Below, in pieces: positions 16,561 through 42,518 of a stretch of DNA of 64,000 nucleotides (positions are counted from its first letter, which is position 1; each line of letters begins with the position of its first letter). The DNA is taken from positions 868,001 through 932,000 of the forward strand of contig NZ_CP107575.1 in assembly GCF_025854375.1 (NCBI RefSeq), given 5' to 3'. Under the pieces are notes generated by a model. It made no database searches. It worked only from the letters and a program-made list of their open reading frames with translations, and was not told the origin of the DNA. The DNA is from Glutamicibacter sp. JL.03c (lineage in GTDB: Bacteria; Actinomycetota; Actinomycetes; Actinomycetales; Micrococcaceae). The translations under genes were made by a program, and so were the position numbers.

Positions 16561-16608
16561 GTAGCTAAGAATAGTTGATATGAAAGATTTGTTGAAGAGT
16601 TTCGCCAT

Positions 16609-16807: not shown

Positions 16808-19800
16808 ATGGCCAGAACTGCCTCATCCGGTTGGACCGGCATGTTGAAAAGCACCGGTTTCAAAGCAACTGCCATACCGGTGGCTGCCGCCCTCGCCGTC
16901 ACCGGGGCCATTATCTACCCCGGATTCGAAACCGCTGACGTTGAACTCAACGATGGCGGCGTCTGGGTGGTCAACCAGTCCGAAGGCAAGATCGGCCACG
17001 TCAATTACCAGTCGCGCACGATCGATGGTGGCGTAGCTACGCCGCTGGCCAGCTACGATCTGGTGCAGCACGAAGAAAACGTGATGGTCCGCAATCTGGA
17101 GCAGGCCTCACTGACCACCATCGACCCCTCCATGGTGCAATTCGCCGGCGACAACAACCTGCCAGCGAACTCCTCCTTCTCCTTCGGGTCATCCGTTGTC
17201 GCCGTTACCGATGCAGAACATGGCACCGTTCAAGCCAGCGCCCTCGAGCATATCGGCGACTTCAAAGGCGAAGGCGCTGAACCCCTGATCGACTCCGAAG
17301 GCGACGTCGGAGCCGTGGTGGGTACCGACGACACCATTTGGGCGGCAGATTATGCCGCCGGCACCCTTTCCAGCTTCACCTTGGACAACGACGGCACGGC
17401 CGTCGCCGGCGAGAAATTGGAAATCTCAGAGCTGGCGTCCATGAAGAAGCCGCAGCTTTCCGCAGTGGGAAAAACCGCCGTGGTCTTCGACGAAGCCAGC
17501 GGCGAGCTGGTCACGTCCAAGGGCGGCAAGGCCACCGTGGACAACGCGGCCAACGCCCGGATCCAGGCCCCAGGACCGGACTCCGGAAATGTCGCCATCG
17601 CCCTGGACCAATCGCTGGCCACGGTGTCGCTTTCGGGCAAGGACACCAACTACGAACAGGTCGACACCGCGGGCACACCCATCGCCCCGGTGCGAGTTGG
17701 TTCGTGCACCTACGCCGCCTGGCAGACCAGCGGCGAGTACCTGCGATACTGCGATGACCCATCCGGCAACCAAAGCACCCTCATCCCGGAAATGACCGAG
17801 GGCGCTGAACTGGCCTTCCGCGTCAACCGTGACGTCGTGGTCCTCAACGACGTGCACTCCGGCCAGGTCTGGCTGGCCAACGAAGGCATGGAAATCGTCA
17901 GCAACTGGAGCGATCTGGAGCCTCCGGCCGGTGAAGGCGAAGCCAAGGAGGAAGAAACCAAGGAGATCACCGACGCCATCGAGCTGCCTAACCGCACCGA
18001 GGAGAACAAGAAGCCCATCGCGGAAGACGACCAGTACTCCATCCGCCCCGGACGCACCACTTTGCTGCCGGTGCTCTACAACGACGTGGACCCGGACGGC
18101 GACCTGCTCACAGCAGCCGTGGAAGGAGCTTCGCCGTCGCTGGGCTCCATCCAGCCGGTCCATGACGGCACCGGCTTCCAGATCGTGGTCCCCGAGGACG
18201 CCAAGGGATCGGCCAGCTTCAACTACACCACCAAGGACGGCCGCGGCGGACAGGACACCGCCACCGTCAAGCTCAATGTGGTTGGCGAAGACAGCAACAA
18301 GGCCCCCGAACAGCAGCGCACCACCGTCCTGCGCGTGCAGCAGGGCGAATCGGTCAGCCAGAACCTGCTCACCGACTGGACCGACGCGGAAGGCGATGAC
18401 CTGCGCCTGCTCGGCGGAACCTCCGACGGCGACGACGTGATCCGCGTCCAGCCCGATGGCACCATGACCTTCCAGGACGACGGGAAGAAGCTGGGGCAGA
18501 AGGAAGTCGCCATCCAGGTCTCCGACGGCAGGGAGGGGACCAAAGGCCGCGTGCTGGTGGAGGTCATGGCCGAATCGACCATCAAGCCGGTCACCGCCAC
18601 CGACCACGTGGTCACGAACATCGGCGAATCGGCCAGCTTCAGCCCGCTGGAGAACGACACCGACCCGACCGGCGACGGACTGCGCCTGGCCGGCGTGGAT
18701 GATGTGGCCGGACTGGAATTGGCCAGCAACGCCCAAACCGGAACCGTTACCGTCAAGGCCGAACGCGCCGGAACCTACTACGTGGAATATATGGCCACCA
18801 ACGGCCCGGCCAGCGCTCCGGGCCTGGCCCGGATCGATGTGAAGAAGCCTGAAGAGCAGGCCGCCGACCCGATCGCCGTGCGCGATGTGGCCCTGCTCCC
18901 GGCAGGCCAGGACGTGCTGGTGAACGTGCTGGGCAACGACTCCGACCCGGCCGGCGGGGTGCTGGTGGCCACCGGCGTGCAAAGCGCCACCGACAAGCCA
19001 TTCTCCACGAGCATCGAGCGCAACACCTTCGTGCGCATCACCGACGTGCGCGGCCTGAGTGACCCGACCACCATCAGCTATACCGTCTCCAACGGCAGCC
19101 GCGAAGCCACCGGATCCATCCGCGTCATCCCGATCCCCGCCCCGCCGCGCATGGACCCGCCACAGGCCAACCCGGATACCGTCACCGTGCGCGAGAACGA
19201 CGTGGCCACGGTCAAGGTCCTGGAAAACGACGTCCACCCCAACGGCGCGGAACTCACCCTGCGCCCGAAGCTGGAGGAAACCGACGGCCTGGGCGAAGGC
19301 TCCATCATCTCGGTGGCCGATGAGACCATCCGCTTCCGCGCCGGCGACTTCGGCGGCAAGGCCAAGCAGGTCTCCGCCGTGTACACCGTGGCCGGCCCCG
19401 ACGGCCAGGAAACCAGCGCCACCGTCACCTTTAATATCCAGCCCGCCGCTGCGGCCAGCGACCTGGAAAAGAACAGCCCGCCGAATCCGGAACCGGTCAC
19501 CGGCCGGGTCTTCGCCGGCTCCAGCACCAACGTGCAGGTGCCCATCGAGGATATCGACCCCGATGGAGACTCCGTCTCGCTCGTGCAATTCGGTGATGCG
19601 CCGCGCCTGGGCACCGCGAAGATCCGCGACGGCTCCATCGACTACACCGCGAACCCCGATGCTTCGGGGACCGATGAATTCAGCTATGTCGTCGAGGACC
19701 GCCTCGGCGCCCGCGCCACCGGAACCATCAAGATCGGCGTCGCGCCGCTGGCCGAAACCAACAACTCCCCGGTGGCGGTCAACGACTTCCTCACCGTGCG

Positions 19801-22800
19801 TCCCAACCGCCCGGTCGCCGTGGACGTGATGGACAATGACACCGACCCGGATGGGGACCCCATCGCCCTGATGAGTGAAGTCTCCACCGAATCCGGGGCC
19901 GACGTGAGCGTCGCCGACGGCCGGGTGATCCTGACCTCGCCGCGAGAGGACGGCAGCATTTCGGTGCGGTACATGATTTCCGATGGACGCGGCGGCACCG
20001 CAGCGGGAACCCTGAGCATCAAATCCGATCCCCAGGCCCAGCTGCTGGCTCCGATCGCGCGCGATGACCGGGTGTCCCTGGAACAGGTCATCAGCAACGA
20101 CGAAATCACCGTTGACATCCTGCGCAATGACGAGGACCCCGATGGCAGTGCCGATGAGCTGGAAGTGTCCCTGCCCGATAACCCCGACAGCGCCCGCGTG
20201 ACCGATGAGGGGCTGGCGGTCACCGCCGGTGAAAACCCGCAGGTCATCGCCTACTCCCTGGAAGACGCAGATGGCTTGACCTCGACCGCATTCGTCCACG
20301 TGCCCGGTACCGCTGGCGCCCGCCCGATCCTGCGCAGCGGCCTGAACCTGCAGGTCCAGGCCGGCAAGAACCTGCCGCTGAAGCTCGAGGACCTGGTGCT
20401 GGTCCGCGAAGGACGCAGCCCGCGACTGACCACCGAGGAATCGGTGACCTCCATGCCGGAGAACGATGGCGCGCTGGTCTCCTCCGCCACGGAGCTCAAC
20501 TTCCGCGCACCGGTGGACTTCGACGGCTCAGCCACCGTGAGCTTCGAAGTGACCGACGGCTCGGGACCGGATGACGAGAAGGGCTTGACATCCAAGCTCA
20601 CCGTGCCGATCAACGTCACCCCGGCTCCGGGGCAGAACAACAGCGACGAGGAACAGGACCAGCGCGAAGACGGCAAGAGCAAGGAAGAAGAGGAAGAAGA
20701 GGAAGAGGAAAAGCAGCCGGACGAAGAGAATTTCGCCCCGACCCTGCAGTCCAACTCCCTCTCGGTTGGCCAGGGCGAGGAACCAGCCTTGCTGGATCTG
20801 CGCATGGCCGCGAACGACGCCAATGAGGAGGATGTGCCCAAGCTCAAATTCGCCCTCGGGGGCGTGGACATCCAGGGTGTCGAAGCCCAGCTGGTGGAGG
20901 GCCACACGCTGAAGGTCAGCGCCGACGCCTCCACGCCCAAGGGCACCAGCGGCACCGTCTCGGTCACCGTCAGCGACGGGGTGAACCCGCCGGTGGCCGC
21001 GAATATGAGGGTGACCGTCACTGGCTCCAACCGCGAATTGCCGGTGGCAGTGGCCGATAATGTCGCCGATGCGGCACAGGGCAAAACCGAAGTGGTTGAC
21101 GTCCTGGCCAATGACCACAACCCGTACGCGGACCAGGGCCCATTGCGCCTGATCAATGCCCGGGCGCTGCAGGACACCGGAAAGGTCGAGATCAAGGGGG
21201 ACAAGGTAGCGATCACCCCGAAGGACGACTTCGTGGGCACGATGCGCGTGGAATACACCATTGGCGATGTCACCGAGGATGTGGCCCGCAATGTCATCGG
21301 GACCGTGACCCTGAACGTCAAGGGCGCTCCGGAAGCACCGGGCCTGCCGCGCGTGCAATCCACCGGCGATGAAAAAGTCGTGCTGCAGTGGGATCCGCCC
21401 GCCAATAACGGCTCGGCCATCACGCACTACACCGTCACCGGCGGCGGGCACACCCAGCAGTGCGCCACCACCACCTGCACCATCACCGGCTTGACCAACG
21501 ACAAGGTGTACAACTTCACCGTGACCGCCACCAACGCGGTCGGCGAATCCCCGGCCTCCGCCCAGTCCGCCGATGCGCGCCCGGATGTCGAGCCGGAGCA
21601 GCCTGCTGCCCCGACCGGCACCAGCGGTGATACGCAGGCCGCCTTCAAGTGGACCGCGCCGGTCAGCCGCGGGTCGGCGATCCAGAGCTACACGCTGGAA
21701 ATCTCCCCGGCCCCTGGCAACGGGATCACCCAGGTTACCGGGATCACCGGCACCTCCTACACCTGGAAGGGCCTGAAAAACGGCACCGACTACCAAGTCC
21801 GGGTGCGCGCGGTGAACAAGGCCGCAAAGCCCTCGGCCTTCAGCGCCTACTCTGCGGCCGTCACCCCGGCCGGAAAGCCGTTCAAGCCCGCGGCGCCGAC
21901 CGCGGCCCGCAAGGAATCCGCGGTGGACGGCGGCGTGGTCAACGTGGCGTGGACGGCACCGGGAAACAACGGTGCACCGATCACCGGGTACACCCTGCGC
22001 GTGTTCAAGTCGGGCACCCTGGTCAAGACCGTGGGATCCATCTCGGCCGACCAGCGCAGCCAGAGCGTCACCGGGTTGAGCACCTCCGGCTCCTACACCT
22101 TCACCATTGCCGCGAGCAACCGGGTCGGTGCCTCGGCGCAGAGTTCGCCTTCGGCTGCGGTCACCCCCTACGGGCGGCCCAAGACCATCTCGTCGGTGGC
22201 CGCCAAGGCCACCGGGGCCTACCGGATGGTGCAGCTGAACTTCCAGGCTCCGGGATCCAACGGGTCGAAGATCACCGGATACCAGTACTCCACCGACGGC
22301 GGGGCCTGGAAGTCCTTTGGCGGTCCCGGCGCGGTGATTGACACCGGATCGAACGGCAACGCCCACACCTGGCGGGTCCGGGCGCTCAACGCTGCCGGCG
22401 CGGCGTCGCCGAGCCCGGCCAGCAACCAGGAAAGCGCCTACGGCCCGTTGCGCGACAACGCCAACATCTCCGCCTCGCACGGAGATGACTGGATCACCTT
22501 CAACTGGAACACCAACGCAGGCGAGGATAATGGCCGCACGGTCAGCCAGACCGTGAAGATCGGCGGAAACAATACCAAGAATGACGGCACGCAAAAGGTG
22601 ACCGGCCTTGGCTACTCCACCGATCGCACCATCAAGGTCATCGCCAGCGATAACGCGGGACAGTCGCGCTCCTGGTCCAAGACCGAGAAGACCAATCCGA
22701 AGCCTGCGCGTTCGATTACCCTGTCCAAGGGACCGCTGTACAACGGCTACTCGAACTCGGATTGCCAGCCGGACTGCTACAAGTACCACGTGGAGCTGTA

Positions 22801-22999
22801 CAACTTCGCGCCCGGGACGCATACCTACCTGGCCCAGTGCTACCACTCCGGCGGCATGTTCTCGGACAACTATGTGAGCTTCACGGTCAACGGCAACGGA
22901 CGGGCATCGAAAGACCTGCCCTGCGTGATCGAGCCGGGCTATGCCACCCCGTACTTCGCCAGAATCGATGGCACCGAATCCAACAGGACCAGTTTCTAA
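16808..22999 (+). CDS. Giant membrane-anchored Ig-like/fibronectin type III protein
   Basis: A 2063-residue predicted surface protein. Residues about 18-40 (TAIPVAAALAVTGAIIYPG) form a signal anchor without a clear cleavage site. Residues about 45-370 look like a beta-propeller (repeated VWVVNQ, IWAADYAAGTL, VWLANEGMEIV strands). From about 400 to 1500 come some ten Ig/cadherin-like modules marked by NDVDPDGDLL-type acidic motifs suited to Ca2+, interrupted near 1290 by a poly-Glu stretch. Five FN3 domains (about 1505-1970) and an 85-residue Cys-containing cap (SDCQPDCYKYHVELYNF) end the protein. No LPXTG or LysM is seen. AAGGA precedes the ATG. It heads the nine-gene operon and is its likely exported effector. 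Confidence 0.82.
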   Translation: MARTASSGWTGMLKSTGFKATAIPVAAALAVTGAIIYPGFETADVELNDGGVWVVNQSEGKIGHVNYQSRTIDGGVATPLASYDLVQHEENVMVRNLEQASLTTIDPSMVQFAGDNNLPANSSFSFGSSVVAVTDAEHGTVQASALEHIGDFKGEGAEPLIDSEGDVGAVVGTDDTIWAADYAAGTLSSFTLDNDGTAVAGEKLEISELASMKKPQLSAVGKTAVVFDEASGELVTSKGGKATVDNAANARIQAPGPDSGNVAIALDQSLATVSLSGKDTNYEQVDTAGTPIAPVRVGSCTYAAWQTSGEYLRYCDDPSGNQSTLIPEMTEGAELAFRVNRDVVVLNDVHSGQVWLANEGMEIVSNWSDLEPPAGEGEAKEEETKEITDAIELPNRTEENKKPIAEDDQYSIRPGRTTLLPVLYNDVDPDGDLLTAAVEGASPSLGSIQPVHDGTGFQIVVPEDAKGSASFNYTTKDGRGGQDTATVKLNVVGEDSNKAPEQQRTTVLRVQQGESVSQNLLTDWTDAEGDDLRLLGGTSDGDDVIRVQPDGTMTFQDDGKKLGQKEVAIQVSDGREGTKGRVLVEVMAESTIKPVTATDHVVTNIGESASFSPLENDTDPTGDGLRLAGVDDVAGLELASNAQTGTVTVKAERAGTYYVEYMATNGPASAPGLARIDVKKPEEQAADPIAVRDVALLPAGQDVLVNVLGNDSDPAGGVLVATGVQSATDKPFSTSIERNTFVRITDVRGLSDPTTISYTVSNGSREATGSIRVIPIPAPPRMDPPQANPDTVTVRENDVATVKVLENDVHPNGAELTLRPKLEETDGLGEGSIISVADETIRFRAGDFGGKAKQVSAVYTVAGPDGQETSATVTFNIQPAAAASDLEKNSPPNPEPVTGRVFAGSSTNVQVPIEDIDPDGDSVSLVQFGDAPRLGTAKIRDGSIDYTANPDASGTDEFSYVVEDRLGARATGTIKIGVAPLAETNNSPVAVNDFLTVRPNRPVAVDVMDNDTDPDGDPIALMSEVSTESGADVSVADGRVILTSPREDGSISVRYMISDGRGGTAAGTLSIKSDPQAQLLAPIARDDRVSLEQVISNDEITVDILRNDEDPDGSADELEVSLPDNPDSARVTDEGLAVTAGENPQVIAYSLEDADGLTSTAFVHVPGTAGARPILRSGLNLQVQAGKNLPLKLEDLVLVREGRSPRLTTEESVTSMPENDGALVSSATELNFRAPVDFDGSATVSFEVTDGSGPDDEKGLTSKLTVPINVTPAPGQNNSDEEQDQREDGKSKEEEEEEEEEKQPDEENFAPTLQSNSLSVGQGEEPALLDLRMAANDANEEDVPKLKFALGGVDIQGVEAQLVEGHTLKVSADASTPKGTSGTVSVTVSDGVNPPVAANMRVTVTGSNRELPVAVADNVADAAQGKTEVVDVLANDHNPYADQGPLRLINARALQDTGKVEIKGDKVAITPKDDFVGTMRVEYTIGDVTEDVARNVIGTVTLNVKGAPEAPGLPRVQSTGDEKVVLQWDPPANNGSAITHYTVTGGGHTQQCATTTCTITGLTNDKVYNFTVTATNAVGESPASAQSADARPDVEPEQPAAPTGTSGDTQAAFKWTAPVSRGSAIQSYTLEISPAPGNGITQVTGITGTSYTWKGLKNGTDYQVRVRAVNKAAKPSAFSAYSAAVTPAGKPFKPAAPTAARKESAVDGGVVNVAWTAPGNNGAPITGYTLRVFKSGTLVKTVGSISADQRSQSVTGLSTSGSYTFTIAASNRVGASAQSSPSAAVTPYGRPKTISSVAAKATGAYRMVQLNFQAPGSNGSKITGYQYSTDGGAWKSFGGPGAVIDTGSNGNAHTWRVRALNAAGAASPSPASNQESAYGPLRDNANISASHGDDWITFNWNTNAGEDNGRTVSQTVKIGGNNTKNDGTQKVTGLGYSTDRTIKVIASDNAGQSRSWSKTEKTNPKPARSITLSKGPLYNGYSNSDCQPDCYKYHVELYNFAPGTHTYLAQCYHSGGMFSDNYVSFTVNGNGRASKDLPCVIEPGYATPYFARIDGTESNRTSF

Positions 23000-23038
23000 T
23001 TGCCACCTTGTGGCACAGCAAGACACAGAAAGGGCACT

Positions 23039-24064
23039 ATGCCAACGACCATGAGCACCGAGCAGGCCAGCTGGTTCGCCGACACCTTTTCCACCCTGGT
23101 CTCCAACGTGGGGCAGTCCGTGCTGGGCAAGGACCAGACCATCAAGCTGGTGCTGACCGCCATGCTTTCCGAAGGCCACGTCCTGCTCGAAGATGCCCCG
23201 GGCACCGGCAAGACCATGCTGGCGCGCTCGCTCGCCGCCACCGTGAAGGGCAGCAACTCCCGCATCCAGTTCACCCCGGACCTGCTGCCCTCGGACGTCA
23301 CCGGCATCACCATCTACGACCAGCGCACCGGACAATTCGAATTCCACCACGGCCCGATCTTCGCCAACCTGGTGCTGGCCGATGAAATCAACCGCGCCTC
23401 GCCCAAGACCCAGTCCGCGCTGCTGGAAGTCATGGAAGAAGGCCGGGTCACCGTGGACGGCGTCACCTACCCGCAGGCCCGGCCGTTCATGGTGATCGCC
23501 ACCCAGAACCCGATCGAGCAGGCCGGCACCTACCGGTTGCCCGAAGCCCAGCTGGACCGCTTCCTGATCAAGACCTCCATCGGCTACCCGGACCGCGCAG
23601 CGACGGTGGCGCTGCTCTCGGGCAGCGCCCAGCGCGACCGCTCGGCCTCGCTGCGCCCGGTGATCACCACCGAAGCCGTGGTGGATATGGCCCAGCTGGC
23701 CACCACCGTGCACGTGGACGCCGCGGTGCTCGACTACGTGGCTGCCCTGTGCGAGCAGACCCGCGACGTGCCCGAAACCCGCTTGGGTGTGTCGGTGCGT
23801 GGCGCGCTGGCCATGGTCCGCGCGGCCAAGGTCTGGGCCGCCAGCCAGGGGCGCAACTACGTCTTGCCTGATGACATCAAGGAATTGGCCCCGCATATCT
23901 TCACCCACCGCCTGGTCCTGGATCCGGAAGCCGAATTCACCGGCACCACCGCAGCCCAGGTCATCACCTCGGTGCTCAACAAGGTCCCGGCTCCGACCCG
24001 CCGCGGCAGCGACGAGACGGGGACCGGCAACCAGGAATCCGGCAGCGGCCAGGAAGCGCATTAA
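23039..24064 (+). CDS. MoxR-family AAA+ ATPase
   Basis: A 341-residue cytoplasmic AAA+ chaperone of the MoxR/RavA clade: Walker A LLEDAPGTGKTMLARSL near residue 50, Walker B LVLADEINRASPKTQSALLE near 110, sensor IATQNPIEQAGTYRLPEAQL and a C-terminal lid. MoxR proteins help mature or activate partner complexes, typically with a neighbouring DUF58 or VWA protein, as here. AAAGGG sits 5 nt before ATG 23039. The stop overlaps the DUF58 ATG by 1 nt (TAATG), implying coupled translation. Confidence 0.92.
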   Translation: MPTTMSTEQASWFADTFSTLVSNVGQSVLGKDQTIKLVLTAMLSEGHVLLEDAPGTGKTMLARSLAATVKGSNSRIQFTPDLLPSDVTGITIYDQRTGQFEFHHGPIFANLVLADEINRASPKTQSALLEVMEEGRVTVDGVTYPQARPFMVIATQNPIEQAGTYRLPEAQLDRFLIKTSIGYPDRAATVALLSGSAQRDRSASLRPVITTEAVVDMAQLATTVHVDAAVLDYVAALCEQTRDVPETRLGVSVRGALAMVRAAKVWAASQGRNYVLPDDIKELAPHIFTHRLVLDPEAEFTGTTAAQVITSVLNKVPAPTRRGSDETGTGNQESGSGQEAH

Positions 24065-25383
24065 TGAACCGAAAAGCTAGGCGTTCATCAGGGCGCAGGG
24101 CGCTGAACCGCAGGGCCGGCCAATCGCTGAGCATGGCCAGCGAGGCGTTGTCGGTGCTGCGCGAATACCTGCGCCCGGCAACCGGCAAGGTGCGCAGCTT
24201 CAGCGAGCGCTTCTTCGCTCCGCTGGCCTCGGTGATTTCCCCGCTCGGCTTCGCCCTGGCCGGCACCACCATCCTGTTGTGGATCCTCGGGGCGGTCTTC
24301 GGCTGGCAAGAAGCGATCCTCGGCGCGTTCATGGCCACCGTCCTGCTCTTGGCCGCCGTCGGGTTCATTCTCGGGCGCAACGACTTCAGCGTGCAGTTGG
24401 ACCTGCACCGCACCCGCGTGGCGGTCGGCGACCGTGCCGTCGGCGCGCTGCAGATCACGAACAAGGCATCGCGTGGCTCGGCCGCGGTCATGATGGAGCT
24501 GCCGGTGGGCCACGGCGCCACCGCGTTCAGGATTCCGCGCCTGGCCACCGGCGAACAGCATGAAGAACTGTTCACCATCCCCACCCAGCGGCGCCAGGTC
24601 CTGGATGTCGGGCCGGTGCGTTCGGTACGCCAGGACCCCTTCGCGATCCTGCGCCGCCAGGTGAAGTGGACCGACACCTACGAACTGTTCATCCACCCGA
24701 AAACCACGGCCCTGGATGGTTCCTCGGCCGGTTTCATCCGCGATCTAGAAGGCATGCCTACCTCGGATCTGTCCAACTCGGATGTCTCTTTCCACGCCCT
24801 GCGCGACTACCAGCCCGGCGATGACCGCCGGCATATCCACTGGAAATCCACGGCCCGCACCGGGGCGCTGATGGTGCGGCAGTTCGAGGAGACCCGGCGC
24901 TCGCACCTGGCGCTGAGCCTGTCGACCAACTTGGAGGAATACTCCGAGGCCCATGCCGAAGAGGACTTCGAGCTGGCCGTCTCGGTGGCCGCCTCCATCG
25001 GCCAGCAAGCGGTAGCCGAACAGCGCAAGCTGGCGATTCTCACCCAAGCAGGTCCGGTGCGCACCGACAGCGGGCGCATGATGATGGACGGGCTGACCCG
25101 TATCGAATCCGCGCCGGTGCTGCGCGACTATCTCGTGGATGTGGTGCGGCATACCGCTGACACCGTGCCCGGGGCCTCGGTGGTGTTCTTCCTGACCGGC
25201 ACCGGCACCAGCGCGAAGGCATTGCGCGAAGCCTGGATGCATGTGCCCGTGGGAGTGCGGGCCATCGCTATCCGCTGCGAAGCAGGAATCGAGCCGACCC
25301 GATCGAATATTGGCGAATTGACCGTGCTCAGCCTGGGCAAGCTCGAGGAACTCGGGCTGATGCTGCGAAAGGCGGTGGCATGA
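24064..25383 (+). CDS. DUF58-domain membrane protein
   Basis: A 439-residue protein with a basic N-terminus, two TM helices at about residues 56-105 (SVISPLGFALAGTTILLWIL, then ATVLLLAAVGFIL) and a C-terminal DUF58 domain with its hallmark LRDYQPGDDRRHIHWKSTAR followed by GALMVRQFEETRR. DUF58 proteins have a VWA-like fold and pair with MoxR ATPases and TgpA-like proteins in envelope operons; the biochemical role is unproven. The stop overlaps the next start by 4 nt (ATGA). Confidence 0.9.
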   Translation: MNRKARRSSGRRALNRRAGQSLSMASEALSVLREYLRPATGKVRSFSERFFAPLASVISPLGFALAGTTILLWILGAVFGWQEAILGAFMATVLLLAAVGFILGRNDFSVQLDLHRTRVAVGDRAVGALQITNKASRGSAAVMMELPVGHGATAFRIPRLATGEQHEELFTIPTQRRQVLDVGPVRSVRQDPFAILRRQVKWTDTYELFIHPKTTALDGSSAGFIRDLEGMPTSDLSNSDVSFHALRDYQPGDDRRHIHWKSTARTGALMVRQFEETRRSHLALSLSTNLEEYSEAHAEEDFELAVSVAASIGQQAVAEQRKLAILTQAGPVRTDSGRMMMDGLTRIESAPVLRDYLVDVVRHTADTVPGASVVFFLTGTGTSAKALREAWMHVPVGVRAIAIRCEAGIEPTRSNIGELTVLSLGKLEELGLMLRKAVA

Positions 25384-27737
25384 ACAAGCGACCGATCTGG
25401 CGTTTCGGAGTGGATGCCGCGTGCCTGGCCGTGGCCCTGCTGCTCGGCGCCCTGGGGCTTCTGGACGCCTATGGCGCCAGCCCAAATTTCATCCTGGCTG
25501 CCACCGGCGGCATTCTTGCCGGCCTGGCGCTGGCCTGGGCGAACGTCTATTTCCGGTTGGGTACTTGGCGCACCGTTGGCATCTTTGCTCTGCTGTACCT
25601 GCTGCTGGGCACCCCGCTGGCCACCCCGCGCGAGGCCGCCTTCGGCGTGCTGCCCACGGCCTCATCGCTGCGCACCTTGCTCGCTGGCCTGGTGTTCAGC
25701 TGGAAAGACATGCTCACCGTTGCCCCGCCCGTGGGCAGCTACGGCGGGGTGCTGATCGTCGCTTTCTTCTCCACCCTGCTGACCGCGGTATTGGCGGGAC
25801 TGGCCGCATGGCGGCTGCGTTCGCCGTACTGGGCTTTGATTCCATTGCTGGCCATGTTTGTCCTCGGGATCGCCTTCGGCACCCGTGATGTGCCCTTGCC
25901 CATTGCCCGCGGCGTAGCCCTGGTGGCGGTCCTGGTGGGCTGGCTGGCCTGGCGCACCTTCATGTCCGCTCGGATCGCCGGCGACTTCAATACCTTGGAT
26001 GTCGCTCACGGAGAGTCCCGCGGCAGCCAGCAATTGCTGGTGCGCCGCGTCATTGCCGGAGCGCTGGTATTGGCTGGCGCCGGCACCATCACGGCGGCGG
26101 CAACCCCGCTGCTGGCTCCCGAGAATCCCCGCCAGGTGCTGCGCGATGCGCTGGAACCACCGGTGGATTTGTATGACTATCCCAGCCCGCTGACCCGCTT
26201 CCGCAAGTATGTCAAGACCATGGCTGATGACACGCTGCTCACCGTCAAGGGCCTTCCCAAGGGCCAGCGCATCCGCCTGGCCGCGCTGGATTCCTATAAT
26301 GGCATGGTGATCAACGTCGACCCGGCCGCCGGAGGCAGTTTCTCCCCGGTAGGCGACGCGAGCGACATCCGCTCCGCAGACTCCGCGGATGGACGGGAAA
26401 CCGCGGATCTGAGCATTGATATCCAGGACTACGAAGGAGTCTGGGTCCCTGCTGGCGGAAAACTGCTGGGCATGGATCTTTCTGGCGACCGCGAAGACGA
26501 GCTAGCCCGTTCGCTGTTCTATTCCGATACCTCCGAAAGCGTGCTGAGCTCCATGGGCCTGCGCAAGGGCGACTCGTACACCGCGAAGGTGCAGTTCCCG
26601 GCGCAGCCTACCGACGAACAACTCGCGCAGGTGGACTTCGCCCAGCTGCGCATGCCGGAATTGGCCAATGTTCCAGCCATGGCGGGGGCCAAGGCCGCCG
26701 ACTTCACCGGGACCGCCCGCAGCGACCTGGAACGGGCACGCAGCCTGGAATCGATGCTGTCTGGCACCGGATTCTTCTCCAACGGCACCGAGGGCCAGGT
26801 CCCGTCGCTCTCCGGCCATGGCGCAGGGCGCATCACCAGCCTGCTGGATGCGGACCAGATGATTGGCGACGACGAGCAGTATGCCGTGGCCATGGCCTTG
26901 ATGGCTCGCGAACAAGGCATGCCAGCACGTGTGGTCATGGGCTTCTACCCTGAAGAATATCGTCCTGACCAGGCAGTGAAGTTGACCGGTTCCGATGTCC
27001 ACGCATGGGTGGAAATCGCCTTTGAAGGCGCCGGATGGGTGGCCTTTAACCCGACTCCCGACGAGGATGAGCAGCCAACTCCGCCCGAGCAGGAGCCCAA
27101 ATCCGTACCGCAGCCGCAGGTGCTGCAGCCACCGCCGCCGGCGCAGGATGAAGCGGACCTTCCGCCGCAGACCGCACCGGAACCACAGGAAGTCGAAGAA
27201 GAGCCAAAGACCTTCTGGGAACGCTGGGGCATGCTGATCAAGGTGATTGGCATTTCCCTTGGTTCCTTGCTGGTGCTGCTCTCGCCGCTGGCGCTGATTG
27301 CGCTGCTGAAACTTCAACGCCGCAAGAAGCGCTCCGGCACGGGCAACACGGCCGAACGCATGAGCGGTGGATGGCAGGAACTCTTGAGCTACGCCACGGA
27401 TCATCGGGTTGCGACCGCCAGCGGGGCAACGCGCCGGGAAAACGCGGCAGTACTGGCTACCGGGTTCCCGGATCTAGCGTCCTCGGTGGCGACCTTGTCC
27501 CACCGGGCCGACGCTGCGAACTTCTCCAGCGAGCAGCCCACCGATGAGCAGGTGCAGAAGTACTGGGATGACGTCATGACACATACCCGGAAAATGCAGG
27601 AGCCGTTGGGTGTCTTCGGCCGGATGCGGGTGAATTTCTCGCCACGGTCGCTGATCCACGAACTAGCGGCCAAAACGGTCAAGAGCGCAAGAACTTTCAA
27701 ACACAAGAACAGGAAATTGCCATGGCAGCGAAAATGA
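25380..27737 (+). CDS. Transglutaminase-like (TgpA-type) membrane protein lacking the catalytic Cys
   Basis: A 785-residue protein: about six N-terminal TM helices (residues 10-220), an extracytoplasmic region with a transglutaminase-like core near 495-563, a Pro/Glu-rich linker, a last TM (LIKVIGISLGSLLVLLSPLA) near 619-643 and a cytoplasmic tail. The core keeps MPARVVMGFYPEEY and GSDVHAWVEIAFEGAGWVAF. The usual GxCEQFA is GDDEQYAVA and the final FDPTP is FNPTPDE, so Cys and Asp of the Cys-His-Asp triad are missing. It is therefore probably a binding or scaffolding version. The next gene starts 16 nt inside its 3' end. Confidence 0.87.
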   Translation: MNKRPIWRFGVDAACLAVALLLGALGLLDAYGASPNFILAATGGILAGLALAWANVYFRLGTWRTVGIFALLYLLLGTPLATPREAAFGVLPTASSLRTLLAGLVFSWKDMLTVAPPVGSYGGVLIVAFFSTLLTAVLAGLAAWRLRSPYWALIPLLAMFVLGIAFGTRDVPLPIARGVALVAVLVGWLAWRTFMSARIAGDFNTLDVAHGESRGSQQLLVRRVIAGALVLAGAGTITAAATPLLAPENPRQVLRDALEPPVDLYDYPSPLTRFRKYVKTMADDTLLTVKGLPKGQRIRLAALDSYNGMVINVDPAAGGSFSPVGDASDIRSADSADGRETADLSIDIQDYEGVWVPAGGKLLGMDLSGDREDELARSLFYSDTSESVLSSMGLRKGDSYTAKVQFPAQPTDEQLAQVDFAQLRMPELANVPAMAGAKAADFTGTARSDLERARSLESMLSGTGFFSNGTEGQVPSLSGHGAGRITSLLDADQMIGDDEQYAVAMALMAREQGMPARVVMGFYPEEYRPDQAVKLTGSDVHAWVEIAFEGAGWVAFNPTPDEDEQPTPPEQEPKSVPQPQVLQPPPPAQDEADLPPQTAPEPQEVEEEPKTFWERWGMLIKVIGISLGSLLVLLSPLALIALLKLQRRKKRSGTGNTAERMSGGWQELLSYATDHRVATASGATRRENAAVLATGFPDLASSVATLSHRADAANFSSEQPTDEQVQKYWDDVMTHTRKMQEPLGVFGRMRVNFSPRSLIHELAAKTVKSARTFKHKNRKLPWQRK

Positions 27738-28795
27738 ATCTGGTGGACGCCACGTCCACCCAACGACTGCTGTCATGGCTGGTTGATATGGTGCCGGTGC
27801 TGATTCTTTCGGTGATTTTCCTGCCGATGATTTCAGCCAAGATGATCCAATCCCTGAGCGTCCCCGACGTGCTGGGGGATATCGCCGGACTCTATGTCAC
27901 CTACGGGCTGCTTTCCTTGGCCTACACCGTGTTCCTTTGGTGGTGGGAGGCCACCGCTGGAAAGACACCGGGCAACCTGCTGCTCGGCGTGCGTACCACG
28001 AACCTCGAAGGTGGCGTGCCCGGCTGGGGGAAAACCATCGGACGCCGTCTGCTGATTGCCGTTGCCGGCATCATCCCGGTGGTCGGTTCCATCCTTATGG
28101 TCATTTCCAATCAGTTTGACGCCAATGGCAAAAAGCAGGGATGGCATGACAAGGCGGCTGGCACGCTGGTGGCGGATATCAAGGCCGGTCGCGATCCGTT
28201 GAGCACGGGCGGCAAGCAGGGGCCAGAGTCCTTCGCACCGCAGCAAGCAGCCAGCAAAGCTGAGCCAGCTGCCGAAGCGCCAAAGAACGAAGCCGACGTT
28301 CCCGCGGAGAAGGAACTAGCCGTTATCGATTCGGTGCCCGGCGCGGTGCGCGCCCCCGAACCGCAACCGGAGCCGCAGCCGCAACGGAGGCCGGAAATCC
28401 CGAACCATGATGGCGCCGACGATGACGACGAAGCCGGCTACACCCGGCTGCGCACCCCAGCGCCGGAAGGCCTTCATCTGGAATTTGATGACCAGAAGTG
28501 CATTGAACTTGATGGAAGCATCCTGTTGGGCCGCAACCCCTCGCACGGCGACGGGGACGTCGGAGTGCGTTTGGTCGTCTTGGATGATCCCGAACGCAGC
28601 GTCTCCAAAACCCATTTGCTCATTCAGCCCGGTGCCGGCTGCATCTGGGTCACCGATCGCGGCTCGGCTAACGGCTCATCGATCGTTGACGCGCAGGGTG
28701 CCGTGCGTGCATTGGAACCGGGCAAACCGGAACAGGCACTGGTGGGGCAGACGGTTTACCTGGGCGACCGGTACTTCTACGTGGAGCAACCGTGA
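27722..28795 (+). CDS. RDD-FHA membrane protein
   Basis: A 357-residue protein. An RDD domain with about three TM helices (residues 15-150; RLLSWLVDMVPVLILSVIFL, TAGKTPGNLLLGVRT and GWHDKAAGTLV are typical) leads to a Pro/Glu-rich cytoplasmic linker and a C-terminal FHA domain from about 263 with LLGRNP, ERSVSKTHLLI and DRGSANGSSIV, so the phospho-Thr contact residues Arg, Ser, His and Asn-Gly are all present. It should bring a phosphorylated partner, perhaps the kinase, to the membrane. It overlaps the previous gene by 16 nt and the next by 4 nt. Confidence 0.88.
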   Translation: MAAKMNLVDATSTQRLLSWLVDMVPVLILSVIFLPMISAKMIQSLSVPDVLGDIAGLYVTYGLLSLAYTVFLWWWEATAGKTPGNLLLGVRTTNLEGGVPGWGKTIGRRLLIAVAGIIPVVGSILMVISNQFDANGKKQGWHDKAAGTLVADIKAGRDPLSTGGKQGPESFAPQQAASKAEPAAEAPKNEADVPAEKELAVIDSVPGAVRAPEPQPEPQPQRRPEIPNHDGADDDDEAGYTRLRTPAPEGLHLEFDDQKCIELDGSILLGRNPSHGDGDVGVRLVVLDDPERSVSKTHLLIQPGAGCIWVTDRGSANGSSIVDAQGAVRALEPGKPEQALVGQTVYLGDRYFYVEQP

Positions 28796-29613
28796 ACGGC
28801 CCAGCGCCCAGCTTCACCCCGACCTTCAGCTGCGGCCAAGCTACGGATCGTGGACTGCGCCGCGCGCTGAATGAAGATAGCATGCTGGCCACCGACCGCG
28901 TGATCGCCATCGCTGATGGCATGGGCGGACACGAAGCGGGAGAGATAGCCAGTGCCTTGTGCTTGAAGCTGCTCGATGATGGTCTCGGTGACGTGCACGC
29001 GCAGATCGACCCGGAACAGCTCGAAGCACTGCTTGAACGCACCGACCAGAAGATCATAGCCGTCGGGGCAGGACGCGCAGGAACCACGCTGAGCGGGGCG
29101 GTGTTCGTTGACGAAGCATCCCAAGCCGCAATGGCGCAGCCGCAGCTCCTGGTTTTCAATATCGGGGATTCGCGGACCTACCTGTGGTCGCATGACCAGC
29201 TGCAACAGGTGAGCATTGACCATTCGGAAGTCCAGGAAATGGTGGACAACGGTCAGCTGAGCCCGGATGAAGCCGCCAGCTATCCGCGGCGCCACGTGAT
29301 CACCCGAGCGCTGGGCATCAATGCTGACAGCCAGCCGGACTTCTGGATGTTGCCTGTCTCAGGCGCCGAACGGATCCTGGTGTGCTCAGATGGATTGAGC
29401 AGCGAAGTGAGCGATGAAAAAATAAGAGAGATTTTGGCGTACTTCCCGGATCCGCAACAGGCTGCCGAAGAATTGGTCCAAGCAGCCCTCACCGCCGGAG
29501 GACGCGATAATATCAGCGTGATCGTAGCCGATGTCCAGTACGGACATCCCGACGACGTCGAAGTGACCGTCCCGCGACTGTCGACCACGAGCCACACAGA
29601 GGAGAAATCATGA
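28792..29613 (+). CDS. PP2C-family Ser/Thr protein phosphatase (PstP-like, soluble)
   Basis: A 273-residue metal-dependent phosphatase. All PPM motifs are visible: TDRGLRRALNEDSMLATD, IAIADGMGGHEAGE, FNIGDSRTYLW, ILVCSDGLSSEV and AGGRDNISVIVADV. There is no TM segment, unlike mycobacterial PstP. It lies three genes upstream of the kinase in the same operon and is the obvious counter-enzyme for kinase and FHA-partner phosphorylation. GTG start in a GTGA overlap with the previous stop. Confidence 0.92.
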   Translation: MNGPAPSFTPTFSCGQATDRGLRRALNEDSMLATDRVIAIADGMGGHEAGEIASALCLKLLDDGLGDVHAQIDPEQLEALLERTDQKIIAVGAGRAGTTLSGAVFVDEASQAAMAQPQLLVFNIGDSRTYLWSHDQLQQVSIDHSEVQEMVDNGQLSPDEAASYPRRHVITRALGINADSQPDFWMLPVSGAERILVCSDGLSSEVSDEKIREILAYFPDPQQAAEELVQAALTAGGRDNISVIVADVQYGHPDDVEVTVPRLSTTSHTEEKS

Positions 29614-31187
29614 ACAGCCTGCGTTACACCCCCGGCGACTGGTGCGCCTTGGTCAATGCCGAGCATGCCGTACTTCTGCCTGCCGACACCAGCTCCGCGC
29701 AGGTCATGGCCTTCTGGAACAAGCTCCAAGAAGCTGCGACCGTTGAGTCATTGCTCTCCGAGCTGCTGTCCCTGTACCAAATGAATATTGCGGCCCTTCC
29801 GGATTTCGCCCTGGTCTCCCGGACAACAGCGCCTCATACTGTCGTGCGCGGAAGCCTCGAACTGCGTTCGAAGAGCAACAGCAGCGACGAACTGGTCAGC
29901 GGCGTTGGCATTGCCACCTGGGCTGAGCGCCAACTAGCTGAATCACAAGGCTGGACCTTGGGACCTGTTGAAGCCACGCCGGGCGATGCAGCCGCACTGC
30001 CAATCCAGGAAGGCATCGTTCGTGTCTCCCACCTGTCGTGGAACCAGGACAACACCCCGACAACTGACGTCGAAGAAGCGGTAAAGCAGGAACCTCAAGC
30101 CACGGCTTCCAAGTCCGTTCCAGCCATGCCGAGCTCGGCGCCGACTCCACCTGCTGCCAATGAACCGGGCGTGGCCGAAGCGCCTAAGCCACAGCCTCCG
30201 GTGGTCGAGGATGCCGCCGATGCCTCGGCGGTTGCTGAAAAACCGGCACCAGCGCCAGCCAAGCCCGAGAACGAAGAAGAAGCGCCTAAGCCACAGCTTC
30301 CGGTGGCCAAGGAGGCGGCAGACAAGCAGCCGAGCCTCGGGCAAATCCCGAAGCCACAGCAACCAGAATCCCAAGATGCCGACAACGACGATACCTTCAT
30401 TCCTTCTTCGGAACGCGATTACCCCGATGATGACGTTAATGGACAGACTCAGGACCCCGAAGACTACGAGCACCATCTGCATTCGGCCGAGTTCTCGCTA
30501 GCCAGCCAGCTGCTGGGCATCCGCGGCGCCCTAGACACCAAGTACGATACCGGCGAAGGCGATGACCTCGATACGATCATCAAATCCCGCGCGGCCGCCT
30601 CATCAGCCCAGCCAGCCGATGAGCACACCATCATCCGCGGAATCAAGGGGATGAATCAGGTGCCACCGCCACGCCCGGAACCGGATGCGGGCGATGAGTC
30701 CCACTCGGGTCCGACCGAATACATCCTGGCCCGCTCCTGCGAACAGCACCACCCCAACCCGCCGACCTCATCCACCTGCCACCTGTGCGGAGCAACCCTC
30801 TCAGGCCCCGCCCGCCAGGTGCGCAAGCCGGCCATGGGCCGGATGATGGTGCGTGATCGCGGCGGCATCCGCCAGTATTCGCATGAGCTGAACCGCTCTG
30901 TCGTCCTTGGACGACAGCCCAGTGTCTCAGCCGTCAACGAGCCAAACCCGCCGCGACTGCTGCAGATTGACAGCCCTAGCGGAGACATCTCCCGCTCGCA
31001 CCTTTTGGTGCGCCTGGAAGGCTGGCATGTGCAGCTGGTGGATCTGGGCGCCACCAACGGCACGATGCTTTTGCGTGAAGGCCAGGCGCCGCGACGTCTG
31101 TCGAAGAACCAGGAAGTCATGCTGATCAACGGCGACGTGGCAGACCTCGGCGACGGCGTGAGCCTGCGCTTTGAGGACCTGCCGTGA
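29610..31187 (+). CDS. FHA-domain protein with zinc-ribbon-like segment
   Basis: A 525-residue cytoplasmic protein. A folded N-terminal domain (about 1-145) of unknown type is followed by about 220 residues of Pro/Ala/Glu-rich linker, then a likely zinc knuckle CEQHHPNPPTSSTCHLCG (about 376-397), then an FHA domain (about 430-523) with VVLGRQPS, SGDISRSHLLVRLEGW and LGATNGTML, the residues needed for phospho-Thr binding. It sits between the phosphatase and kinase with 4-nt overlaps on both sides, so it is probably a kinase substrate or scaffold. Confidence 0.85.
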   Translation: MNSLRYTPGDWCALVNAEHAVLLPADTSSAQVMAFWNKLQEAATVESLLSELLSLYQMNIAALPDFALVSRTTAPHTVVRGSLELRSKSNSSDELVSGVGIATWAERQLAESQGWTLGPVEATPGDAAALPIQEGIVRVSHLSWNQDNTPTTDVEEAVKQEPQATASKSVPAMPSSAPTPPAANEPGVAEAPKPQPPVVEDAADASAVAEKPAPAPAKPENEEEAPKPQLPVAKEAADKQPSLGQIPKPQQPESQDADNDDTFIPSSERDYPDDDVNGQTQDPEDYEHHLHSAEFSLASQLLGIRGALDTKYDTGEGDDLDTIIKSRAAASSAQPADEHTIIRGIKGMNQVPPPRPEPDAGDESHSGPTEYILARSCEQHHPNPPTSSTCHLCGATLSGPARQVRKPAMGRMMVRDRGGIRQYSHELNRSVVLGRQPSVSAVNEPNPPRLLQIDSPSGDISRSHLLVRLEGWHVQLVDLGATNGTMLLREGQAPRRLSKNQEVMLINGDVADLGDGVSLRFEDLP

Positions 31188-32728
31188 GCCCACGGCGTCC
31201 GTCGGCGCCCGCGCCACAGATTCCGGGGTTCACCCTCATCAAGCCGCTGGGCACGGGCGGGTTCTCCGATGTGTATCTCTATGAGCAGCATCGGCCCAAC
31301 CGCAAGGTGGCCATCAAGGTGCTGCTGGCTGATGTCAGCAAGGACGAAGCACGGCAGCGCTTCGAAGCTGAAGCCAACCTCATGGCGCAGCTGTCCTCGC
31401 ATCCGTACATTGTGACTATTTACCAGGCCGAAATTACCGACGACGGCCGGTCGTACCTGGCCATGGAGTATTGCTCGCGGCCTTCCCTCGATGCGCGCTA
31501 CCGCCGGGGTGTACTGAGCGTGGACGAGGCGCTGACCCTGGCGATCCAATTGTGCTCCGCGGTGCATACCGCCCACCTGGCAGGAATTGTGCATCGCGAC
31601 ATCAAGCCGGCGAACGTCTTGACGACCGACTACAATCGGCCGGCATTGACCGACTTCGGCATCTCGGGAACCGTGGGTTCCCATGCTGCGGGGATGTCGG
31701 TTCCGTGGTCCGCGCCCGAGGCCTTCGACGATGGATTGCCACCCGGGGTGCGCATGGATGTCTACTCCCTGGGCGCCACAATTTATACCGTGCTGGCTGG
31801 GCACTCGCCCTTTGTGCGCCCGGGGCAGGATAACTCCCAAGCGGTGCTCATCGAGCGCATTTGCAATACCGAGTTGAAGGCCTTGGATCGAGCCGACGTG
31901 CCGGACTCGTTGAATCAGGCGTTGGCGGTTGCCATGGCCAAGGAATCCGAAAGCCGCTTCGGCTCGGCCGCTGAACTGGCTCGCAGCTTGCAGCGCATCC
32001 AGATCGAACTGGGTTTTTCTGTCACCGATTTCGAAGTGCTGGAGGATCCGGCCGAAACTTTGCCGGATGAAGAAGGGGAGGCAACCCGGGTTCGGAGCGT
32101 CACCTCGATCAGTGATGCCCAGCGTCCGCTGTCTTCGGGGCCGATGATTTCCTTCGTGCCCGGCCAGCGCCCGAACGACTCCGGCTCCGCGCGTCCGGTC
32201 AAGCCACGGGTTGCAGAACGATTTGTCGCTGCCCCGGATGGCCCAGAGGATTCTTCCTCCGCCAGCGCCGTGCATGAAGCCGACGCGCCCCAGGCGGCAA
32301 ATGAAGCTAGGAGTTTCCCGAAAATATTCATTGCCGTCGGAATCCTCCTGGTCCTGCTGGTTGGCGGTGCCATAGCAGTGAATCGAATGCTGCCGCAAGA
32401 GCAAAGCAGTACCCAGAGCGGGCCTCCGATCACGGCCTCCGACGATCCCAAGGACGCGCTGATTGGTGGCACGGTGCCGACGGTCGAGAATTTCAAGTAC
32501 TCTACGGTGGGTAAGACAGTGACCTTCCGCTGGGAAAACCCCGAACCGAATCAGGGGGACTCCTACCGGTGGGCTCCCATTACGGCGACCGATAAGGGCA
32601 AGGTCCAGCAGACCAAATCCACCAGTGCGACCACGGCCATCGCCGAGGGCGGACAGACATGCATAGAGGTTAAGCTGGTACGCGACGATGGCCGGATTTC
32701 CGAAGCTTCCAAGTTCTGCACCGGTTGA
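31184..32728 (+). CDS. Receptor-type Ser/Thr protein kinase (PknB-like)
   Basis: A 514-residue transmembrane kinase. The kinase domain has LGTGGFSDVYLYE (P-loop), VAIKVLLADV (ATP Lys), IVHRDIKPANVL (catalytic loop), LTDFGISGTVGS and VPWSAPEAFDD. After a juxtamembrane linker comes one TM helix (about 378-400, IFIAVGILLVLLVGGAIAV) and about 110 extracytoplasmic residues with VENFKYSTVGKTVTFRWENP and a C-terminal Cys pair (TCIEVKL, SKFC), FN3-like rather than PASTA. GTG start in a GTGA overlap with the FHA gene. It is the likely sensor kinase of the operon. Confidence 0.92.
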   Translation: MSPRRPSAPAPQIPGFTLIKPLGTGGFSDVYLYEQHRPNRKVAIKVLLADVSKDEARQRFEAEANLMAQLSSHPYIVTIYQAEITDDGRSYLAMEYCSRPSLDARYRRGVLSVDEALTLAIQLCSAVHTAHLAGIVHRDIKPANVLTTDYNRPALTDFGISGTVGSHAAGMSVPWSAPEAFDDGLPPGVRMDVYSLGATIYTVLAGHSPFVRPGQDNSQAVLIERICNTELKALDRADVPDSLNQALAVAMAKESESRFGSAAELARSLQRIQIELGFSVTDFEVLEDPAETLPDEEGEATRVRSVTSISDAQRPLSSGPMISFVPGQRPNDSGSARPVKPRVAERFVAAPDGPEDSSSASAVHEADAPQAANEARSFPKIFIAVGILLVLLVGGAIAVNRMLPQEQSSTQSGPPITASDDPKDALIGGTVPTVENFKYSTVGKTVTFRWENPEPNQGDSYRWAPITATDKGKVQQTKSTSATTAIAEGGQTCIEVKLVRDDGRISEASKFCTG

Positions 32729-32752
32729 TAATCAGGAGAGAAGGCGAAATCC

Positions 32753-33454
32753 TTGAACGAACTCTACGTTGAGTATTGTGGGCAGTTCTATCCACTGGAA
32801 GAGGACAAGACCTTCGTCATCGGACGCGAAGGGGATCTCGTGATTGATGACAACCCCTATCTCCACCGCCAATTCCTGACTGTTTCAAAACATGCGGGCT
32901 TGTGGTGGCTGAACAATGTGGGCTCCCGCCTGACCGCCACCATTGCTGACAAGACCGGTGGCCTGCAGGCCTGGCTTTCCCCGGAGTCCAGCCTCCCGCT
33001 GGTGCTGAACCGGGTCTCGGTGGTCTTCACTGCTGGCCCGACCACTTATGAATTATCCATCCATGTTGCGCAGCCGGCATTCCGGCAGGACCATATTGAC
33101 AGCGACGGCGATGGCGAAACCACCATCGGGCCGGTCCTGCTGACTCAGGCCCAGCGCGCCCTGATTGTCGCGCTGAGCGAGCCAATGCTCAAACGCGACG
33201 GGACTGGACTGAGCGCTATTCCCACCAGTGCCGCGGCCGCCGAACGGTTGGGCTGGGGAATCACGAAATTCAACCGCAAGCTCGATAACGTCTGCGATAA
33301 GTTGGACCGGGCCGGTATTGCAGGGCTCCGCGGCGGGCCGGGGAAGCTGGCCACCAATCGCAAGGCCCGGCTTGTTGAACATGCGGTCAGTTCCCATTTG
33401 GTGACCCGATCGGACCTGGATCTCCTCGACGCCGAGGTGCCCGAGGACGACTAG
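32753..33454 (+). CDS. FHA-like/winged-helix protein, last gene of the kinase operon
   Basis: A 233-residue cytoplasmic protein. The N-terminal about 105 residues are an FHA fold (FVIGREGDLVIDD, NPYLHRQFLTVSKHAGLWWL) that keeps the GR and His but lacks the Asn-Gly turn (VGSRLTAT), so phospho-Thr binding may be weakened or altered. Residues about 125-215 (LTQAQRALIVALSEPML, AAAERLGWGITKFNRKLDNV) look like a winged helix for DNA or protein binding. Start is TTG with AGGAGAGAAGG 8 nt upstream, 24 nt after the kinase. It could be the transcriptional output of the pathway (inference). Confidence 0.82.
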   Translation: MNELYVEYCGQFYPLEEDKTFVIGREGDLVIDDNPYLHRQFLTVSKHAGLWWLNNVGSRLTATIADKTGGLQAWLSPESSLPLVLNRVSVVFTAGPTTYELSIHVAQPAFRQDHIDSDGDGETTIGPVLLTQAQRALIVALSEPMLKRDGTGLSAIPTSAAAAERLGWGITKFNRKLDNVCDKLDRAGIAGLRGGPGKLATNRKARLVEHAVSSHLVTRSDLDLLDAEVPEDD

Positions 33455-33478: not shown

Positions 33479-33517
33479 ATGGCTTGGCACTGCCCTTCAA
33501 GGGCAGCGCCAAGCCAT
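33479..33517. terminator. Bidirectional terminator between kinase operon and accE
   Basis: Arms 33479-33495 (ATGGCTTGGCACTGCCC) and 33501-33517 pair with one mismatch over a TTCAA loop. It ends the nine-gene operon and, from the other strand, accD-accE. Confidence 0.85.

Positions 33518-39237: not shown

Positions 39238-39238
<1 letters not shown>
38027..39238 (+). CDS. Class III adenylate cyclase, Rv1264-like
   Basis: A 403-residue soluble cyclase. Residues about 35-200 form a helical regulatory domain (RRREVAAEAGISLHSARKLW, DRMVVWQIEALVEDMIANQN) like that of M. tuberculosis Rv1264, which inhibits the enzyme and responds to pH. The catalytic domain (about 234-400) has both metal Asp residues (AVGFADLVSYT; TIGDEVLYV), the substrate Lys (GGRLVKTIGDE), and the transition-state Asn/Arg in YGPTVNMAARLTSLAEPGSV, so it should be active as a homodimer. 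ATGA overlap upstream, TGATG overlap with the phosphatase downstream. Confidence 0.9.

Positions 39239-42518
<3,280 letters not shown>

Follow-up and report, generated by a model that had tools for sequence, protein, structure and literature searches.

We analyzed a 64,000-nucleotide stretch of the Glutamicibacter sp. JL.03c genome (3.59 Mb, single contig), here called the window, and focused on a putative operon of nine genes that includes a giant surface protein. An earlier reading made from the letters alone (the sequence-only reading) had placed nine genes on one strand here, and this was borne out: nine open reading frames (ORFs), all on the plus strand, occupy positions 16808..33454 (~16.6 kb). 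The first gene (16808..22999) encodes the giant, a protein of 2063 aa with an N-terminal anchor, a propeller-like region at about residues 50-370, Ig/cadherin and FN3 repeats and a C-terminal tail. It is followed by a MoxR AAA+ ATPase (23039..24064), a DUF58 membrane protein (24064..25383) and a TgpA-like pseudo-transglutaminase (25380..27737), which carries membrane helices, a Transglut_core domain without the catalytic Cys and a weak DUF4129 match. Downstream lie an RDD membrane protein with a C-terminal FHA domain (27722..28795), a PP2C Ser/Thr phosphatase (28792..29613), a protein that combines a Cys/His cluster, possibly a zinc ribbon, with a C-terminal FHA domain (Zn-FHA; 29610..31187) and a receptor Ser/Thr kinase (31184..32728). 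The kinase consists of the catalytic domain, a linker with an acidic-Thr motif, one transmembrane helix and an FN3-like ectodomain; Thr301 of the linker (codon 32084..32086) is a predicted juxtamembrane phospho-site, and the extracellular part (32381..32725) is modeled with an FN3 fold and has a Cys pair that is invariant. The last gene (gene 9, 32753..33454) appears to be an accessory gene, with a degenerate FHA domain and a C-terminal winged-helix-like region that we assigned by reading the sequence.

Measured from the ORF ends, neighboring genes overlap by 1, 4, 4, 4 and 4 nt, and 24 nt separate the kinase gene from gene 9, all as previously listed. Two further values depend on the choice of start codon. 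The 39-nt gap after the giant gene requires that MoxR, whose frame is open from 23000, starts at ATG 23039, which is probably the case. The 16-nt overlap between the TgpA-like and RDD genes holds with the start at 27722 and shrinks to the usual 4-nt ATGA overlap with the alternative ATG at 27734. The overlaps suggest co-transcription as one operon. The sequence-only reading had also ended the operon with one terminator. A strong plus-strand hairpin does follow the last gene (33479..33517; folding energy of the 86-nt stretch -45.8 kcal/mol, z -4.8) and is a candidate terminator, with convergent minus-strand ORFs beyond it. Its T tract is weak, however, and a consensus terminator scan was empty on the plus strand after gene 9 and did not list the hairpin. 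That scan was uninformative for the window, with one promoter-like site against 3.2 expected and 11 terminator-like sites against 12.4 expected. The flanking genes are on the minus strand and are annotated as unrelated: a DUF885 protein before the operon (14893-16608) and a carboxyltransferase after it (33815-35425). A further PP2C-type gene lies about 6 kb beyond the operon (39238-40191).

Pfam supported the assignments across the operon (MoxR AAA_3, DUF58, TgpA_N plus Transglut_core, RDD, PP2C, FHA and Pkinase), and in the giant it recognized nine Big_9 and three fn3 stretches at E 0.01. Structure prediction modeled the membrane-anchored N-terminal region of the giant as a propeller. DUF58, a vWA-like domain, was the sole Pfam match of the DUF58 protein, which has no propeller fused to it. 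We then considered conserved residues in alignments of the best match per locus. MoxR, which is 87% identical to MoxR of Glutamicibacter sp. PS, has Walker A and B motifs whose residues are constant in 81/81 homologues. The kinase has the catalytic Lys, HRD and DFG of a Hanks-type receptor kinase together with its single transmembrane helix and ectodomain; almost no variation is seen in its catalytic residues, in those of PP2C or at the key FHA positions. Conservation is lower for the Cys of the Zn-FHA cluster (30/67 aligned homologues), and the FHA match of the RDD protein falls under the curated Pfam cut-off. Gene 9 had no Pfam match at all; its Gly-Arg and His-Arg residues, constant in 20/20 homologues, are FHA-like by our own reading.

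This composition recalls the PFNA operon of Bifidobacterium, the one genus in which the system is already described. PFNA comprises pkb2, fn3, aaa-atp (MoxR), duf58 and tgm, in some species with prpC, a hypothetical gene and fha, and is co-transcribed in B. longum GT15 (PMC8430577, PMC6803598). Its gene order, pkb2 first and then fn3, is called constant in bifidobacteria (PMC8430577). The window shares with PFNA a homologous core of giant FN3 protein, MoxR, DUF58 and TgpA-like protein, in the same order (fn3-MoxR-duf58-tgm) and on one strand, as well as a receptor kinase. It differs in that the kinase is gene 8 rather than the first gene and belongs to a downstream block with RDD-FHA, Zn-FHA and FHA-winged-helix genes, in its non-bifidobacterial host and in a giant without the WSx[PEDAYSW]S motif. 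Judged by these features, the window operon is a Glutamicibacter-type, rearranged and enlarged variant of the PFNA operon, and the earlier suggestion of an undescribed system is not supported. The operon has been stated to be restricted to bifidobacteria (PMC10688814) and FN3 called 'unique to bifidobacteria' (PMC8430577), and a 2025 review likens the operon to the mycobacterial moxR operon (PMC12067865). Save for that resemblance, our searches of the literature accessible to us, which includes few subscription papers, listed no report of the operon outside bifidobacteria.

The comparison included bifidobacterial loci. A 16S primer pattern matched seven of the 149 genomes surveyed from the window's order, all of them among the ten genomes of one family (f4). 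The pattern is that of a Bifidobacterium genus primer, and we take f4 to be Bifidobacteriaceae. Five f4 loci were fetched (four primer-positive and G138, primer-negative), and all read kinase-giant-MoxR-DUF58-TgpA, with PP2C next in two and with kinases that match the ectodomain profile. A stricter overlap rule drops DUF58 of L087 and L090, and the fetched stretch holds tgpA of L090 only in part.

To what extent do the nine genes travel together? For named loci we took the best 80 of at least 591 by MoxR similarity, of which 65 hold both flanks. In this set, where the core is conditioned on MoxR, giant, MoxR, DUF58 and TgpA lie on one strand in 65/65 fully flanked loci. The kinase is on the same strand in 59/65, upstream of MoxR in 34 and downstream in 25; a sixtieth (L030) is on the opposite strand. 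An FHA gene is present in 58/65, PP2C in 53/65 and the FHA-winged-helix gene in 17/65. Strict co-occurrence of the nine families, which the sequence-only reading had put forward as a check, is thus not what these loci have, and we rejected the strict nine-gene unit. The permuted kinase position favors a functional linkage over a frozen block, and conservation of the arrangement across genomes argues against chance grouping. Genera represented among the loci include Arthrobacter, Agromyces, Cryobacterium, Salinibacterium, Aurantimicrobium, Tessaracoccus, Nocardioides and Actinokineospora. The first five of these are free-living genera; some hosts are animal-associated, for example Schaalia canis.

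The survey of the order used two profiles independent of MoxR, one for the N-terminal region of the giant (A1) and one for the kinase ectodomain (A2). At E <= 0.001, and counting weak matches to repeats as well, A1 matched in 87/149 genomes; A2 matched in 59/149. For joining the two we used giant matches down to E 9.5e-36, omitting weaker ones (many repeat-only), and merged the pieces into 89 loci in 75 genomes. Of the 64 ectodomain matches, 58 had a giant no more than 25 kb away, 57 of them with the two in the same orientation; one of the 58 falls inside a giant itself (G030). Conversely, 57/89 giant loci had an ectodomain match (G104, G066 and G007 were checked). The remaining 32 were fetched: 23 had another kinase, three were tandem copies adjoining a giant already counted, two had a kinase as well (G139 C163 and, as a fragment on a 4.2-kb contig, G030 C120) and four had none. 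A kinase is accordingly in the cluster at 85/89 giant loci (57 + 23 + 3 + 2). An outcome that the sequence-only reading had named against itself, giants and kinase halves lying mostly apart, was not observed, and its claim of one conserved system is supported.

Six ectodomain matches were not near a giant (G126, G087, G143, G039 C27, G097 and G140). In G126 a giant fragment lies at the end of the same contig, and in G087 and G143 the ectodomain match falls in a long frame without a kinase match. Among the 23 non-ectodomain kinases, six do not end at a membrane helix: five have C-termini resembling a diverged ectodomain (L097, L109, L111, L118, L122), and the kinase at L100 runs beyond the fetched stretch. 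The FN3 ectodomain appears to have been lost, or never gained, in some lineages. Several side observations concern these loci. At L091-L094, L098, L099, L101, L102, L110, L112-L117, L119 and L121 the operon kinase is 359-477 aa long and stops at the membrane helix. Lone giants with neither MoxR nor kinase nearby were seen at L126 (G005 C11) and at L096 and L108 (G118). Two giants of ~2030-2070 aa in tandem precede MoxR in L103 and L104 (G041, G085), and L105 (G122) has two giants in a row preceded by the end of a TgpA-like gene.

Outside this survey, A1 at E <= 1e-25 matched in 18/197 genomes of a class survey and 6/149 genomes of a phylum survey, of which the window's own order supplies 11 and 3, respectively. 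These data show that the system is widespread in Actinomycetota and concentrated in the window's order, with outliers. The window's genome also holds a second kinase pair and an FHA pair at G000:C1:21918-29529, resembling a cluster of the classical PknA/PknB/FHA type; it lies separately, at 22-30 kb, so the window carries a further set.

For the TgpA-like protein, a Transglut_core match above the Pfam cut-off and the name 'tgm' given to the bifidobacterial gene in the literature (PMC8430577) both favor an active enzyme, either a transglutaminase or a cysteine protease, with cross-linking or cleavage of the giant as its task. The catalytic Cys, however, is present in 0/90 homologues covering the region (92 minus two truncated fragments), the five fetched Bifidobacteriaceae loci included. 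The corresponding site is a near-invariant G-D-x-E-Q, and the window protein has Asp at the Cys site and Asn at the acid position. The acid is still Asp in 54/75 homologues, which would suit an enzyme, whereas the His is altered in 46/75. As an internal control we used a paralogue from the same genome (L106, an 828 aa ORF, G000:C1:837602-838009, ~30 kb upstream of the window), which keeps the Cys (GYC). We rejected the active transglutaminase on this basis and regard catalysis of either kind as very improbable. Enzymatic tethering of the giant by the TgpA-like protein is therefore unlikely, and the 'transglutaminase' of these operons should not be taken as an enzyme without a test.

How might the kinase communicate with the FHA proteins? 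A motif in which T-[RQKI]-[VLI]-[RK] comes after an acidic stretch occurs in 39/69 kinases (shuffle mean 1.6), and 33 of the 43 kinase sites lie 160-172 residues past HRD, where the juxtamembrane linker begins. The same motif is found in 13/69 RDD-FHA and 12/68 Zn-FHA proteins (shuffles 1.0 each), two sets that share proteins, so these counts are not independent. After clustering at 50% identity it remains in 8/19 kinases, 8/38 RDD-FHA and 9/42 Zn-FHA proteins; PP2C (0/59) and the FHA-winged-helix proteins (0/20) lack it. We read the acidic-Thr motifs as putative phospho-Thr sites for FHA domains, and the motif supports a relay within the kinase block. In the window proteins the candidate sites are Thr301 of the kinase, Thr241 of RDD-FHA and Thr322 and Thr340 of Zn-FHA. 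The juxtamembrane domain of the pneumococcal kinase StkP is reported to be phosphorylated (PMC12077195). A phospho-switch in the cytoplasmic tail of the giant was also considered and, after inspection by eye, rejected.

We propose, with a probability of roughly one half, that the operon encodes one phospho-regulated envelope machine, a PFNA-type variant that builds or monitors the giant. The proposal is based on the core in 65/65 and the same-strand kinase in 59/65 named loci, and the kinase-giant linkage is supported further because it was recovered from two starting points, the giant N-terminal region and the kinase ectodomain, across 149 genomes. In the proposed arrangement the giant would be anchored by its N-terminus with the propeller beside the membrane, and the Ig/FN3 stalk would point outward through the wall. 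MoxR and its DUF58 membrane partner may act via the TgpA-like pseudo-enzyme, which would bind the giant without cross-linking it, and the machine would assemble, remodel or hold the giant. The kinase could read the outside state via its FN3 ectodomain and phosphorylate its own linker Thr as well as MoxR, the latter as reported in B. longum (PMC8430577). FHA proteins would dock on the phospho-Thr sites, possibly gating the MoxR-DUF58-TgpA machine, and PP2C would reset them. Of the mechanism put forward in the sequence-only reading, the single conserved system has survived and the kinase-to-MoxR step has a reported precedent in B. longum (PMC8430577), while novelty and nine-family co-occurrence have not and enzymatic tethering is unlikely. 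A more specific version is tentative: an outside-in adhesion receptor system in which a MoxR/DUF58 engine mounts a wall-spanning propeller-Ig-FN3 tether at the membrane, with the dead transglutaminase as dock, and the FN3 kinase senses the state of the tether and acts back on the engine via phospho-Thr and FHA. Ancestrally it would be an envelope sensor of Actinomycetota, with later host use in bifidobacteria.

Several observations weigh against the single machine. The fetched stretch lacks a kinase at four giant loci (G005 C11, G118, G070 C45 and G090), and at L127 (G140), L136 (G039 C27) and L134 (G097) the fetched stretch has a kinase or kinase-FHA block but no giant. Of the 23 non-ectodomain kinases beside giants, 17 end at a hydrophobic stretch, a membrane helix, so FN3 sensing is not universal. 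The window had been read before the acidic-Thr motif was defined, and the homologues are related to one another. The motif is not enriched in TgpA (1/77), DUF58 (1/79) or MoxR (0/81), so the motif gives no support to FHA gating of these proteins. Nor did inspection by eye reveal a conserved phospho-motif in the short cytoplasmic tail of the giant.

Other explanations were considered. The giant might itself be the signal, with strain or a ligand on the stalk sensed by the kinase and the TgpA-like protein and with MoxR-DUF58 as the output or reset on other envelope targets. Upstream kinases directly precede the giant (at most 93 bases separate the two matches in 29/34), a region of the G030 giant matches the kinase-ectodomain profile (E 1.7e-4), and of the 12 substrates reported for B. 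longum Pkb2, which include MoxR, most are encoded outside the operon (PMC8430577). Against this, MoxR-DUF58-TgpA accompanies the giant in 65/65 loci and the kinase in 59/65, a comparison in which the MoxR-chosen set favors the first figure, and kinases ending at a membrane helix are common; we consider the giant as signal possible, though doubtful. That two unrelated blocks, one for surface assembly and one for general phospho-signaling, merely adjoin is unlikely. Module order does vary between lineages, and both lone giants (G005 C11, G118) and giant-free kinase-FHA blocks (G140, G039 C27, G097) would be expected if the blocks were independent. However, proximity of ectodomain and giant in 58/64 cases extends to both arrangements, the same genome has separate kinase and FHA pairs at 22-30 kb, and the reported phosphorylation of MoxR by Pkb2 (PMC8430577) connects the two halves.

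According to the published view of PFNA, the giant is both an adhesin and a receptor for cytokines, with the kinase as a sensor of host immune signals. The case is built on the presence of WS-xS motifs within FN3 domains and on fragments that bind TNF-alpha (PMC8430577, PMC10688814, PMC12607495); in B. longum, FN3 fragments are reported to bind TNF-alpha and TNF-alpha to induce the operon (PMC10688814, PMC12607495). We found WSx[PEDAYSW]S in 25 of 76 giants from outside bifidobacteria, a set made up of the window giant and those of 75 named loci after four truncated giants had been set aside; the window giant has none. Exact WSxWS occurs in five of the 76 (Brachybacterium epidermidis, Actinotalea lenta, Tessaracoccus caeni, Arachnia propionica and Intrasporangium chromatireducens), and L086, one of the five Bifidobacteriaceae giants, also lacks WSx[PEDAYSW]S. 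As the motif also occurs outside bifidobacteria, it is by itself no sign of cytokine binding, and we rejected the argument from it. Many genera with the system are moreover free-living. A host-interaction system is therefore an improbable explanation of the window operon, and ancestral host-immune sensing is unlikely; binding in B. longum is not contradicted and would be a derived use at most.

Because the same core is found in many non-bifidobacterial genera, soil and water genera included, the question moves to envelope biology, and the data suggest an original role in the bacterial envelope rather than toward the host immune system. Environmental strains with the operon offer tractable study systems, and through the operon the role of MoxR-DUF58-TgpA sets can be approached. 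The new points are the Cys-less 'transglutaminase', the propeller region of the giant, the FN3 ectodomain of the kinase and the acidic-Thr motif.

Parts of the operon have counterparts in other systems. PknB/PstP/FHA signaling sets of Actinomycetota likewise cluster a membrane Ser/Thr kinase, PP2C and FHA proteins, whereas the window kinase has an FN3-like ectodomain and its genome keeps separate kinase and FHA pairs at 22-30 kb. MoxR-DUF58-transglutaminase sets of the MRP subfamily form a three-gene arrangement (PMC6803598). These sets and Pseudomonas aeruginosa TgpA (PDB 6g49) share with the window the same three neighbors and a recognizable Transglut_core; in the window the Cys and acid are replaced, and the giant and the kinase block are added. 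The MoxR-vWA-beta-propeller ternary systems, described in a setting of biological conflict (PMC7159879), also bring together MoxR, a vWA-type partner and a propeller, and the bpMoxR model matches window MoxR. There the vWA protein carries the propeller as a fusion, while that of the window is the outer part of the surface protein. Finally, in the archaeal motility regulators ArnA and ArnB of Sulfolobus, an FHA protein binds a vWA protein with phosphorylation sites (PMC6509490). Likened by description and with no homology implied, this pair provides an analogy for how an FHA protein of the operon might engage DUF58.

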